Shown one piece after another: positions 51,470 through 54,105 of a stretch of DNA of 64,000 nt; the first letter of the stretch is position 1, and every line of letters starts with the position of its first letter. The notes below the pieces were generated by a model. It had not been told where the DNA came from. It worked only from the letters and a program-made list of their open reading frames with translations, and did no database searches. Both the position numbers and the translations under genes were made by a program. Origin of the DNA: an uncultured Flavobacteriales bacterium (GTDB lineage: Bacteria; Bacteroidota; Bacteroidia; Flavobacteriales_D; Crocinitomicaceae); assembly GCA_913054135.1 (NCBI GenBank), contig CAJXJK010000008.1, positions 1 through 64,000 on the forward strand, written 5' to 3'.

Positions 51470-52453
51470 GTGAAAAACATTCTTTTCTATATTGGTTTCA
51501 TGGCTATTGGTACAATCGGCGGTTGTGTTTGGCATAAATCCCTCCATTCTGAAAAGCAAGCAAGCTCTGAGCCTACCCCAAACCCAAAAGAGCTAAAGGA
51601 TCATCTCAGATATTTAGAAAGTACTTTAGATACCATGCATGATGTAAAGCCAAATCCAATACCAGGTGAATGGCTTTATCACAACAAAGAAATGCAGCAA
51701 TATCCGCACCAATATCTTGCAGCTCATCCCAGCATATTAGAGGAGAAAAGAAATAAAATTTACATTCAACCAATTGGTGGCTTCACAAAAGCGCAATGGA
51801 AAATACTTGGTGTCACTGCAGATTATCTTGAAGTCTTTTATGAAGTAGATGTTACTGTCATGGATTCTATCTCAGTTGAAAGAGTTCCTAAAAAGAACAG
51901 AAGATTAAATGATAAAGGTGAGACGCAATTACAAACCACCTACATAATGAACAAAATCCTCACGCCAGATTTACCAAAAGACGCTAGAGGCTATATGGGA
52001 TTCACTGCTTACGACCTTTACCCTGATGAAAATTACAACTTCGTTTTTGGTCAAGGAAAATTGGGAGGAAATGTAGGCATCTATTCTTTAAATAGATTCG
52101 GATATCCTGATTGGGATTCTACCGAATATCATATGTGCTTGAAAAGAACTTTAAAAGTTGCCTCTCATGAACTTGGTCATATTTTTGGATTTAGACATTG
52201 CGTGGATTATCAGTGCGTAATGAACGGCTCAAACACCATGGACGAAACTGATCGAAAGCCTGTATATCTCTGTCCACTAGACATGCTAAAAGTAACACAA
52301 GGAATGGGCATTGACGAAGTTTACAGATTCAATAAACTAGAATCTTTCTGGAGAGCAAAGGGCTACGAAAATGAAGCCAACTTTTATAGGGATTGTGCTC
52401 ATCTTTTAGAGACAAATACCAACCGAAGAGAAGGTGGCATCCACAATAATTAA
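51470..52453 (+). CDS. Archaemetzincin-like zinc metalloprotease, lipoprotein
   Basis: The protein has 327 residues from a GTG start at 51470. A lipoprotein-type signal (TIGGC) anchors it to the envelope. The zinc motif HELGHIFGFRHC is followed by VDYQCVMNGSN and YLCPLD, the arrangement of archaemetzincins (M54): three His ligands plus a Cys-based structural zinc site. The last Cys of the usual CxxC is replaced by Asp. Archaemetzincins are rare in bacteria and have no established physiological substrate. It lies directly upstream of the SigZ-type sigma gene. Confidence 0.85.
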   Translation: MKNILFYIGFMAIGTIGGCVWHKSLHSEKQASSEPTPNPKELKDHLRYLESTLDTMHDVKPNPIPGEWLYHNKEMQQYPHQYLAAHPSILEEKRNKIYIQPIGGFTKAQWKILGVTADYLEVFYEVDVTVMDSISVERVPKKNRRLNDKGETQLQTTYIMNKILTPDLPKDARGYMGFTAYDLYPDENYNFVFGQGKLGGNVGIYSLNRFGYPDWDSTEYHMCLKRTLKVASHELGHIFGFRHCVDYQCVMNGSNTMDETDRKPVYLCPLDMLKVTQGMGIDEVYRFNKLESFWRAKGYENEANFYRDCAHLLETNTNRREGGIHNN

Positions 52454-52460
52454 TTTTCAT

Positions 52461-52492
52461 TGCATCTTTTTCTAACTTATACGTCTACATAA
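52461..52492 (+). promoter_or_regulatory. Putative ECF promoter in front of the SigZ-type gene
   Basis: TGCATCT (52461-52467), 14 bases, CGTCT (52482-52486), 2 bases and ATAA (52489-52492) match, with identical spacing, the motif at 53041-53072. The pair suggests that the sigma factor transcribes its own gene. The motif ends four bases before the ATG, so the transcript would be leaderless or nearly so. Confidence 0.7.
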
Positions 52493-52495
52493 TTG

Positions 52496-53032
52496 ATGAC
52501 TATAAAAACAGAACATATTTGGAAAGATTTTGAAAATAAGCTCTTGGGGTTTATAAAGTCAAGGGTTTCTGATAATGAAATTTCAAAAGATATTTTACAA
52601 GATGTTTTTGTGAAAATTCATTTGAACATTGGCAGTTTAAAATCAACTGATAGATTGAGCTCTTGGGTATATCAAATTACCCGAAATGCAATAATAGACT
52701 ATTACCGTAAAAAGAAAATTCAAACAGATAAAATTCCCGAGGTTCCTGAAAATTTAGAAGACGATAATTTAAATGCCGACTTTTACGGCTGTCTCAAATC
52801 TCACTTGAACCAATTATCAGAACAAGACAAAAAAGCAATCATCCAAACTTCGTACAAAAAGGTGAGCCAAAAAGATTTTGCTATTCAAGAAGGCATTTCA
52901 TACACGGCTGCAAAATCTAGGGTTCAACGAGCACGAAAAAAGCTGAATGACCTATTCGTTGGATGCTGTCAAATTCAAACAGATAAATATGGGAACATAA
53001 TTTCTTCTGAGAATGAAGATTGTAATTGTTAA
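52496..53032 (+). CDS. sigZ: SigZ-type ECF RNA polymerase sigma factor
   Basis: The protein has 178 residues from the ATG at 52496; a TTG directly before it is less likely. Sigma-2 is at about 8-75 (EISKDILQDVFVKIHLNIGSL, NAIIDYYRKKK) and sigma-4 at about 105-155 (LSEQDKKAIIQTSYKKVSQKDFA). Past sigma-4 there is a tail with CC (near residue 158) and a terminal CNC, in FVGCCQIQTDKYGNIISS. This pattern is characteristic of the SigZ branch and could bind metal or form disulfides. The same promoter-like motif precedes this gene and the cysteine-rich peptide behind it. No anti-sigma gene is adjacent. Confidence 0.9.
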   Translation: MTIKTEHIWKDFENKLLGFIKSRVSDNEISKDILQDVFVKIHLNIGSLKSTDRLSSWVYQITRNAIIDYYRKKKIQTDKIPEVPENLEDDNLNADFYGCLKSHLNQLSEQDKKAIIQTSYKKVSQKDFAIQEGISYTAAKSRVQRARKKLNDLFVGCCQIQTDKYGNIISSENEDCNC

Positions 53033-53040
53033 ACCAATTA

Positions 53041-53072
53041 TGCGTCCTTTTTAAAAAGTTCCGTCTCTATAA
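53041..53072 (+). promoter_or_regulatory. Putative ECF promoter in front of the cysteine-rich peptide gene
   Basis: TGCGTCC (53041-53047), 14 bases, CGTCT (53062-53066), 2 bases and ATAA (53069-53072) are the same elements at the same spacing as upstream of the sigma gene. The motif begins 8 bases after the sigma stop and leaves a leader of about 30 bases before the peptide ATG. Confidence 0.7.
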
Positions 53073-53104
53073 ATGACACTAAAGTCAAACTAAAAAATAG
53101 AGAT

Positions 53105-53227
53105 ATGAATAATCAAAAAGAAGAATGCAAATGCGAAAACTGTCAATGCACTCCACAAAACGATTGCGGATGTAATTGTCAAGCTTCAACTCAAAGTTGC
53201 TGTTCAACAAGCAGCTCTTGTTGCTAA
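53105..53227 (+). CDS. Cysteine-rich micropeptide, metallothionein-like
   Basis: This 40-residue protein contains 11 cysteines (residues 8, 10, 13, 15, 21, 23, 25, 32, 33, 39, 40). They are arranged as CKCENCQC, CGCNC, CC and CC, with many Gln, Asn and Ser and no signal peptide. The density and C-x-C spacing suggest metal-thiolate binding, as in metallothioneins, though I cannot assign a known family. It is flanked by its own promoter-like motif, shared with sigZ, and by a perfect terminator seven bases past the stop, so it is a credible gene despite its size. The cysteine tail of the sigma factor suggests a common signal such as copper, zinc, arsenic or thiol stress. Confidence 0.75.
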   Translation: MNNQKEECKCENCQCTPQNDCGCNCQASTQSCCSTSSSCC

Positions 53228-53233
53228 AGGATC

Positions 53234-53260
53234 AGGCCTCAGAAATGAGGCCTTTTTTTT
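53234..53260 (+). terminator. Rho-independent terminator after the cysteine-rich peptide
   Basis: AGGCCTCA (53234-53241), loop GAAA and TGAGGCCT (53246-53253) form a perfect 8-bp stem followed by eight T. It ends the plus-strand run. Confidence 0.95.
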
Positions 53261-53325
53261 GTGGGTTAAATGGTAAAATCCGTATCTTTAATCTAGGTTA
53301 AATTAAAGCAAAAGATATGCATTAA

Positions 53326-54105
53326 CTACAAATTCAATTTCCCTTTCAAATCTTCTTTCAAATCAGCCGAAAACAAAGGGCGCCCAAATGCTGGTTCATT
53401 CAGTTTCATTTCAACGAAACTCGTTTCATCCATAGGTGAGTAGAGGCTATCATGATCTGCATCAATTCTTGTTTTCACCAAAATCTTTTGACTCTCTTTA
53501 TAGTAAAAGTAATCAGCAAACTGTTCTTGATCTGGCGTGACTTGAATCAAGGTATCTCCATCTAATGGCGAAACATAAAGAGAGACAGGATCTAAAGCAT
53601 TGAATGCCGTATCTTGATTATAATCTTCTTTTACTAAGCGATAAAAGATGAGTGGATTTTCAAATTCTTTATGAATCGCAAATGATAAAATATGGAGCGT
53701 ATCTTCTTCTCCGACTAAAGGATAAGATTCTCCGCTATCAATGTCATAGAATAATATATTCGTAATGTCAAAATCTTGATTATTCGGATTGATATATTCT
53801 ACTTTCGCGTTCGTGTCCCATGTATATCCTGTATTGTTAGCACAAAAACTGAGGTCGCTAACGGTAGTTGTCCATGTCAATGCGCCATCTAATTCAACAG
53901 GTGGTTCAGTTACTTCAGGACGATAAGAAGTTCCTATCGGGAACATCAATTGATTCTCTAATCCACAATCTAAGGGATCACCAATCACCAACGATTTAAT
54001 TTTCTTGACTGGCTCAGGCTTCTCTTCAGGTTCAACTTCAATGACTTTTTGGCTACAAGAAGCCAACATTAGACTCGCAATAGCGATTGCACTTAACTTT
54101 TTCAT
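53326..54105 (-). CDS. Lipoprotein of unknown function
   Basis: The protein has 259 residues with a lipoprotein signal (SLMLASC, Cys 16). After a Glu/Pro-rich linker (VIEVEPEEKPEPVKK) the mature domain is mostly beta strand with three scattered Cys or Trp pairs (LDCGLENQLMFPIGTSY, LSFCANNTGYTWDTNAK) and an acidic stretch DADHDSLYSPMDE. No family is recognised. It is followed on the same strand by nothing until the sigZ region and preceded by an esterase gene 89 bases upstream. Confidence 0.75.
   Translation of the reverse strand: MKKLSAIAIASLMLASCSQKVIEVEPEEKPEPVKKIKSLVIGDPLDCGLENQLMFPIGTSYRPEVTEPPVELDGALTWTTTVSDLSFCANNTGYTWDTNAKVEYINPNNQDFDITNILFYDIDSGESYPLVGEEDTLHILSFAIHKEFENPLIFYRLVKEDYNQDTAFNALDPVSLYVSPLDGDTLIQVTPDQEQFADYFYYKESQKILVKTRIDADHDSLYSPMDETSFVEMKLNEPAFGRPLFSADLKEDLKGKLNL

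Follow-up and report, generated by a model that had tools for sequence, protein, structure and literature searches.

SigZ is a family of orphan sigma factors that was named in 1997. For Bacillus subtilis its role is given as 'Not yet determined' (PMC7522486) or it is described merely as 'ECF' (PMC10141391), and by term counts SigZ is absent from two reviews of ECF factors (PMC8999054, PMC8103513). A sigZ gene followed by a small cysteine-rich reading frame, as found here in a 64,000-nucleotide stretch of DNA (the window, by which the whole stretch is meant) from a Bacteroidota genome of 4.05 Mb in 24 contigs, raises the question of which genes such a factor transcribes and to which signal it responds. 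In the literature searched, with most subscription papers outside our reach, no report was found that links SigZ to either a Cys-rich peptide or arsenic. The reading that we regard as likely is that of an autoregulated SigZ that senses thiophilic metals or metalloids and is coupled to a metallothionein-like peptide; this reading is inferred, and sensing and binding are untested.

The locus is a compact unit on the + strand (52461-53261), in which a promoter-like element is followed by sigZ, 8 bases, a second element, 38 bases, a peptide ORF and a terminator. Its features are:

52461..52486, + strand: promoter-like element 1 (TGCATCTTTTT...CGTCT), before sigZ; the same element precedes sigZ in relatives
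52496..53032, + strand: sigZ, ECF sigma factor of 178 aa; matches to TIGR02959, Sigma70_r2 and Sigma70_r4_2
52964..53029, + strand: Cys tail of SigZ, C157-C158 ... C176-x-C178; from conservation and an AlphaFold model
53041..53066, + strand: promoter-like element 2 (TGCGTCCTTTTT...CGTCT), before the peptide; from the motif match and relatives
53067..53104, + strand: spacer of 38 bases that separates the putative -10 and the peptide ATG; much like that of the nearest relative (L035)
53105..53227, + strand: 40-residue peptide with 11 Cys (CxC and CC pairs) and no aromatic residue; from the ORF and relatives
53234..53261, + strand: intrinsic terminator (AGGCCTCA-GAAA-TGAGGCCT and a T run); from a hairpin scan and folding

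The ATG at 52496, one codon 3' of the TTG given in the ORF list, is the likelier start of sigZ. Since only 9 nt separate the end of the putative sigZ -10 from this ATG, the sigZ mRNA would be leaderless or nearly so, and the leader of the peptide mRNA is predicted from sequence alone to be about 30 nt long. No terminator-like site was found in the interval between sigZ and the peptide ORF, which would allow a long joint transcript beside the short one of the peptide. At 53234-53253 the terminator forms a hairpin in which a perfect 8-bp stem closes a loop of 4 bases, with a T run behind it; this stretch folds with -16.6 kcal/mol (z = -4.73). The order HutD-ABM-sigZ-peptide-esterase is common to the window and the locus of its nearest relative, L035, where the sigZ-peptide pair is retained though two flanking genes of the window are unmatched: an archaemetzincin-like (M54) gene directly 5' of sigZ (51470-52453) and the gene at 53326-54105.

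The two elements are exact copies, with identical spacing, of the motif TGCRTCY-N14-CGTCT-N2-ATAA (52461-52492 and 53041-53072). There was no third exact match in the 64-kb window, and 100 dinucleotide shuffles of the window gave none. When up to three mismatches were allowed, three matches were found in the window versus a shuffle mean of 1.44, so that the one extra match is about what chance would give. A looser form (TGCRTCN-N14..16-CGTCT) has five matches in the whole 4.05-Mb genome, with a T tract only in the sigZ/peptide pair, and the T-tract pattern TGCRTCYWTTT-N8..11-CGTCT has just two matches genome-wide, the elements of sigZ and of the peptide. The metallothionein-like peptide would be, apart from sigZ itself, the only detectable SigZ target in the window. 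The sigma protein passed the cut-off of the SigZ family model TIGR02959 (170.5 bits, cut-off 168.65), being the only one of 25 matches in the genome that does so, and failed that of NF007215 (PRK09637; 182.2 bits, cut-off 212). The first-pass annotation had claimed a motif occurring twice with identical spacing before a sigma gene and a peptide, a 40-residue peptide with 11 Cys ahead of a perfect terminator, and a SigZ-type sigma factor; all three claims held, on the exact matches and shuffles, on the ORF, hairpin and folding, and on the TIGR02959 cut-off, respectively. By eye, a GTGA/TGAA box about 6-9 nt 3' of CGTCT recurs at many peptide promoters and shows less clearly at those of sigZ; it is possibly a start-site or initial-transcript signal.

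A comparative set was assembled from a search of the order (21 of 299 genomes with a SigZ match at E up to 1e-20), a contig search (36 loci), and searches of the phylum (51 of 395 genomes) and of the family (22 of 240 genomes). It comprised 91 distinct SigZ homologues of at least 120 bits, among them L018, broken by stops and included by name. As controls, 24 loci of other ECF factors (at most 98 bits) were used. The ambiguous L138 and L139 (110-111 bits) were placed in neither class; the truncated L070 was excluded from the 23-locus control and included among the 24 controls used for ars/mer and tail counts; second copies of the same gene were left out of the counts; and the phylum matches G538 and G686 lie outside the set. 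In a selected alignment of 63 rows, NF007215 matched 46 and TIGR02959 matched 35 (E up to 1e-49), and part of the sample therefore represents a wider SigZ-like clade. SigZ rows clustered by phylogeny, with 15 label changes on the tree (from which six broken or partial rows were excluded) versus 46.7 in shuffles, the bootstrap remaining unsettled; because the rows are related by descent, the locus counts given below are not independent events.

The 11-Cys peptide is the only ATG ORF of 20-130 aa in the window that reaches both 6 Cys and a Cys content of 15%. By these criteria a Cys-rich ORF adjoins sigZ in 44 of the 91 homologues, downstream in 24 (type A, as in the window) and upstream in 20 (type B), and none adjoins the sigma gene at the 23 control ECF loci (Fisher p 4e-6). 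As background, the flanks beyond 1.2 kb from sigZ, 177,792 bases in all, contained a single such ORF. No adjacent Cys-rich ORF was recorded for the other 47 homologues, and the peptide count is to be taken as at least 44: the 60-residue peptide of L027, with four CC pairs, falls just under the 15% threshold, and L041, which carries the ars label in the tree, has by eye a 22-residue Cys peptide. At several type B loci a terminator-like hairpin was seen by eye, unscored, between the peptide and sigZ, so sigZ would there be made by read-through. As a separate observation, sigZ carries in-frame stops in L018 (G171) and L024 (G185), with motifs and peptide intact, which may reflect decay or assembly error.

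The motif itself recurs across these loci. Its strict form was present within -500..+900 of sigZ in 46 of the 91 homologues, in 20 of them in at least two copies (this pattern was not shuffled), and of 66 strict matches 62 have a gap of 15 or 16 nt between TGCRTC and CGTC. A narrower strict form was found at 25 of the 91 loci and not once in shuffles, in reversed sequences or on opposite strands, and the relaxed form at 56 loci, whereas 20 shuffled sets gave 0.2 on average and never more than 1. A chance motif was rejected on these shuffles and on the comparison among SigZ loci. At type A loci the relaxed motif preceded both genes in 18 of 24 cases, sigZ alone in three and the peptide alone in three. 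In a type B clade (L030, L032-L034, L081, L084, L125, and L126) the two halves shift jointly, to TGTATC and GGTC/AGTC, which is what a single altered sigma factor recognizing both would be expected to produce. Across the 240 genomes of the window's family, the motif occurred in 16 of 22 with SigZ versus 11 of 218 without it (p 2e-13); eight of these 11 SigZ-less matches lie inside reading frames of at least 80 aa (those of L147, L153, and L164 do not), and in a script test none of the 11 precedes a Cys-rich ORF. The association of the motif with these genes is shown by sequence comparison; its activity as a promoter is inferred, in the absence of expression data. We nevertheless consider it very likely that SigZ controls both its own gene and the peptide.

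The association is incomplete. The strict pattern was present anywhere in just 14 of 26 SigZ-positive genomes chosen elsewhere in the order and phylum. The relaxed motif was missing from -500..+900 at 35 of the 91 loci, of which 16 have ars/mer-type genes, among them the ArsI clade L088-L100, and 11 have a Cys-rich ORF; at motif-less loci either the promoter may differ or the link may not run through the TGCRTC/CGTCT motif. The motif also precedes genes without an evident metal role, namely PhzF in L091 and, on weak matches, an acid-phosphatase-like gene in L097. In L099, whose gene was not scanned, it is positioned as in L097, and in L169 it lies, by eye, before a divergent transporter-like gene.

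The peptides are alike in composition rather than in any recognized family. The 42 distinct ones measure 22-65 aa and contain 6-19 Cys (31.7% Cys overall) and almost no His; CxC occurs in 41, CC in 34, and 38 lack W, F, and Y. With E allowed up to 10, Pfam gave no match for 10 peptides and NCBIfam none for eight, the window peptide being included in both sets. In genus g5 an identical 27-residue peptide is encoded in four genomes with 3-5 codon differences per pair, and since all of these are synonymous the ORF is under selection at the protein level. Selection is thereby shown for this one peptide group, and an untranslated ORF was rejected on the same synonymous-only change in a related genus; for the window peptide the case for coding is inferred from the similarity of its pattern to that of the L035 peptide. 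That the window peptide is metallothionein-like is likewise inferred, from sequence alone and without metal-binding data. As a side observation, L025 and L027 encode 3' of sigZ small Cys-rich proteins with apparent signal sequences (MRKTVIVALAAIG... and MKKRMILFGVLTL...) and have further TGCGTC-like sites downstream of sigZ; these proteins are possibly a secreted arm of the regulon.

SigZ carries its own cysteines in a C-terminal tail. In the 63-row alignment C157 and C158 were present in all 63 rows, C176 and C178 in 59, and the linker Cys at residue 99 in 46. None of the seven intact homologues lacking the CC pair happened to be selected for this alignment, and the 63/63 value is biased. Counted over the whole set, a CC pair lies within the last 65 residues of 83 of the 91 homologues, 77 of which have at least two further Cys, and near the C terminus of none of the 24 control ECF factors. 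The intact homologues without the pair are L087, L091, L092, L097, L099, L136, and L137, and motif copies are still found near L091, L097, L099, and L137; the remaining homologue without a counted pair is the stop-interrupted L018. Sequence comparison thus shows that most homologues conserve the tail Cys. In the AlphaFold model (mean pLDDT 85.8, pTM 0.49) both sigma domains are confidently predicted and the tail is less certain: its two blocks have pLDDT 75 and 69, and short beta strands span residues 160-162 and 168-171. In this model the two strands between the Cys pairs might let the pairs meet, a prediction for which no distances were measured. Matches to solved ECF structures end at residue 150-154 or earlier, and therefore none of these structures covers the Cys tail. 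No recognized anti-sigma gene was found among the three upstream genes scanned at the window locus.

A probable signal for SigZ, newly found here, is suggested by the ars/mer-type neighbors of its relatives. ArsM, ArsC, Acr3, ArsI, permease, and MerTP genes were counted in the flanks, the identity of the reference proteins being assigned by NCBIfam. Such genes were present at 31 of the 91 SigZ loci, with E up to 1e-20 in 30; the exception, L136, rests on a weak match alone (3.5e-8, opposite strand). ArsM, ArsC, Acr3 or ArsI at E up to 1e-20 was found at 22 SigZ loci. None of the 24 controls had ars/mer-type genes, despite longer flanks (median 3.9 and 3.6 kb versus 1.5 and 1.5 kb). At nine loci the motif lies 31-95 nt 5' of an ArsM, ArsI or permease gene: it precedes arsenite methyltransferase genes in L042, L046, L072, and L075, all above the NCBIfam cut-off of 263; ArsI/CadI genes in L093 and L121, above the cut-off of 116, and in L137, slightly below it (112.5); and SO_0444/SaoE-like permease genes in L048 and L049, which are below the cut-off and not proven arsenic genes. 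L047, where the permease is split across two frames, is a tenth motif-preceded locus. In L083 the motif lies about 360 nt 5' of an ArsR-type gene that is followed by MerTP; the peptide co-occurs with MerTP and Acr3 at the Hymenobacter locus L040; and Acr3 lies upstream of the peptide in L125 and L126. Taken together, 83 of the 91 loci have at least one of an adjacent Cys-rich ORF, a relaxed motif (-500..+900) and an ars/mer-type gene, and eight have none.

The presence of ars/mer-type genes at related loci is shown by sequence comparison, and the ligand is inferred. The genome of the window handles arsenic, as it contains on contig C12 (locus L193) an arsenosugar operon of ArsM, a TIGR04282 glycosyltransferase and the radical SAM protein ArsS. 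No match to Acr3 or ArsI was found in this genome, and its ArsM is of the arsenosugar type and has no motif upstream, so arsenic as the signal in the window rests on the relatives. We rejected the idea that the motif also controls the arsenosugar operon or further genes, the T-tract pattern having only its two matches in the genome. We lean, with reservation, towards arsenic or mercury as the natural signal of SigZ.

The first-pass annotation had also inferred that SigZ transcribes its own gene and the peptide gene, that its tail senses metal or thiol stress directly, and that the peptide buffers the metal; loss of the motif and of the peptide ORF next to sigZ in close relatives would have spoken against it. 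The search of relatives supported the transcriptional part, as both recur beside sigZ in close and distant relatives and neither was found at the 23 control ECF loci. Its statement that SigZ-type factors carry a Cys-rich tail proved largely right, and the metal or thiol inference gained independent support from the ars/mer-type neighbors. That the tail senses directly and that the peptide binds metal is still only inferred. The claim that no anti-sigma gene is adjacent agrees with the three upstream genes scanned, the downstream pair being outside that scan.

In the mechanism that we propose, an on-board thiol sensor would replace the anti-sigma factor of SigZ. A soft metal or metalloid, with As(III) the likeliest candidate and Hg(II) a possible one, would bind the CC...CxC tail, possibly joined by the linker Cys99, and render SigZ active. 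Active SigZ would read the -35 TGCRTCYTTTT and the -10 CGTCT, transcribing its own gene in a positive feedback and, from the second promoter copy up to the terminator, the 11-Cys peptide. This peptide would act as a cytoplasmic metallothionein-like buffer that removes the metal or metalloid and so turns SigZ off again, a negative feedback. Direct sensing of a thiophile by the tail is a likely step; like the feedback, it is inferred without expression or binding data. A bolder reading would make SigZ a cross-phylum, anti-sigma-free sensor of arsenic and soft metals that uses one promoter code to command an unnamed set of metallothionein-like micropeptides, its regulon having shrunk in the window's lineage to the sensor and one peptide; we would argue for and against this with equal readiness.

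Among the alternatives, the one with most in its favor keeps the circuit and changes the signal to copper, zinc/cadmium or thiol oxidation, the ars/mer neighbors being lineage-specific targets. For it speak the copper redox response of CorE, the nearest characterized mechanism (PMC3107203), the permeases of L047-L049, whose matches to SO_0444 Cu/Zn and SaoE models all stay below the cut-off, and the lack of an acr3 or arsI match in the window's genome. However, the motif stands directly before ArsM (L042, L046, L072, and L075) or ArsI (L093, L121, and L137) in several separate lineages, and we consider this alternative unlikely. Even less probable, indeed very improbable, is that the peptide, rather than buffering metal, regulates SigZ (as a mini anti-sigma factor or a metal-delivery co-factor) or is the precursor of a modified peptide. 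Its pairing with sigZ does recur in both gene orders, and the terminator-like hairpins seen by eye between peptide and sigZ at several upstream-type loci would set an unequal ratio of the two products. But length (22-65 aa) and residue order diverge strongly while Cys density is kept, unlike a protein-protein interface; the window peptide has by eye no hydrophobic signal-like stretch, and the three upstream genes scanned include no modifying enzyme, specifically none of the Bufferin type (MNIO).

It might finally be objected that the whole is an artefact of chance or composition, the motif being a T-rich coincidence and the 40-codon ORF untranslated, for motif and ORF are both short and lie in an AT-rich stretch. 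This is all but excluded by the lack of motif matches in shuffles, the recurrence of the motif at 46 of 91 SigZ loci, the synonymous-only codon change in a related genus and the lack of a Cys-rich ORF at the 23 control loci.

The preferred reading, an autoregulated metal(loid)-sensing SigZ with a metallothionein-like peptide, can be set beside several known systems. B. subtilis SigZ belongs to the family model TIGR02959 whose cut-off the window SigZ passes, and the tables of PMC7522486 and PMC10141391 give for it no Cys-rich peptide or metalloid link; its locus was not examined. CorE and CorE2 of Myxococcus xanthus (formerly ECF44, now around ECF238) have no linked anti-sigma factor, and their activity is set by a short C-terminal Cys-rich extension (PMC3107203, PMC8999054), through which copper redox state controls CorE (PMC3107203). 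CorE is also partly autoregulated (PMC3107203, PMC8999054), similar to the autoregulation proposed for SigZ, and the window SigZ shares with it a Cys-rich extension after sigma region 4. However, the invariant tail Cys of CorE are spaced C-x2-C-x7-C-x-C (PMC3107203) and those of the window SigZ CC-x17-C-x-C; the inter-domain linker of CorE has a CxC motif, whereas that of SigZ has none and a single Cys (residue 99). Membership of the window SigZ in the CorE group was rejected on these two failing signature features. The targets of CorE are copper genes such as cuoB and copB, with no micropeptide in the relevant sections of PMC3107203 and PMC8999054.

The peptides were set beside bacterial metallothioneins as a group, not family by family. 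Like the SigZ-linked peptides, bacterial metallothioneins are short, about one third Cys, with CxC and CC pairs and few or no aromatic residues; the SigZ-linked peptides differ in having no family-model match and almost no His. Assignment of the peptide to a known metallothionein family was rejected, as no Pfam or NCBIfam model matched. ArsR-regulated ars operons contain the same kinds of gene (ArsM, ArsI, Acr3, and ArsC) as several SigZ loci, but they use a repressor, whereas control by SigZ would be positive, with a sigma factor reading its own promoter.

A long-known sigma factor without an assigned signal thus gains a concrete and cheap test. If the reading is true, it would provide a second and distinct design of metal-sensing sigma factor beside CorE, a predicted promoter code with which regulons could be found across several phyla, and a reservoir of bacterial metallothionein-like peptides outside the family libraries searched. 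A two-gene circuit of sensor and buffer would be about the smallest imaginable switch for metal homeostasis, and could serve as a biosensor part.

The plasmid search returned 1358 records, 1043 of them from Klebsiella; the enterobacterial rows among the 30 listed show about 31% identity over 87% of the query (E about 3e-16), and we take them to be probably iron-uptake sigma factors. The sigZ genes on Priestia (L190) and Vibrio (L191) plasmids have no Cys-rich peptide alongside. There the relaxed motif precedes a divergent aldo/keto reductase gene (L190:4955) and, about 2 kb upstream of sigZ, a glutathione S-transferase-type gene (L191:3028), which are possibly thiol-stress targets; these two loci neither help nor exclude the SigZ-circuit reading. 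Photobacterium L198 yielded neither annotation nor motif. A Hymenobacter plasmid combines a sigZ-like gene, preceded by a motif with its first base changed, with a 22-residue Cys peptide, ArsC, and Acr3. On plasmid pROB01 of Rhodococcus opacus B4 a 58-residue Cys-rich ORF (L192:5688-5864), annotated as 'hypothetical protein', is convergent to a SigZ-like gene and has the motif TGCGTCC...CGTCT 64 nt upstream; a looser motif precedes the sigma gene, with another looser match beside it on the opposite strand. With this one example, the sigZ-peptide pairing may reach the Actinomycetota.
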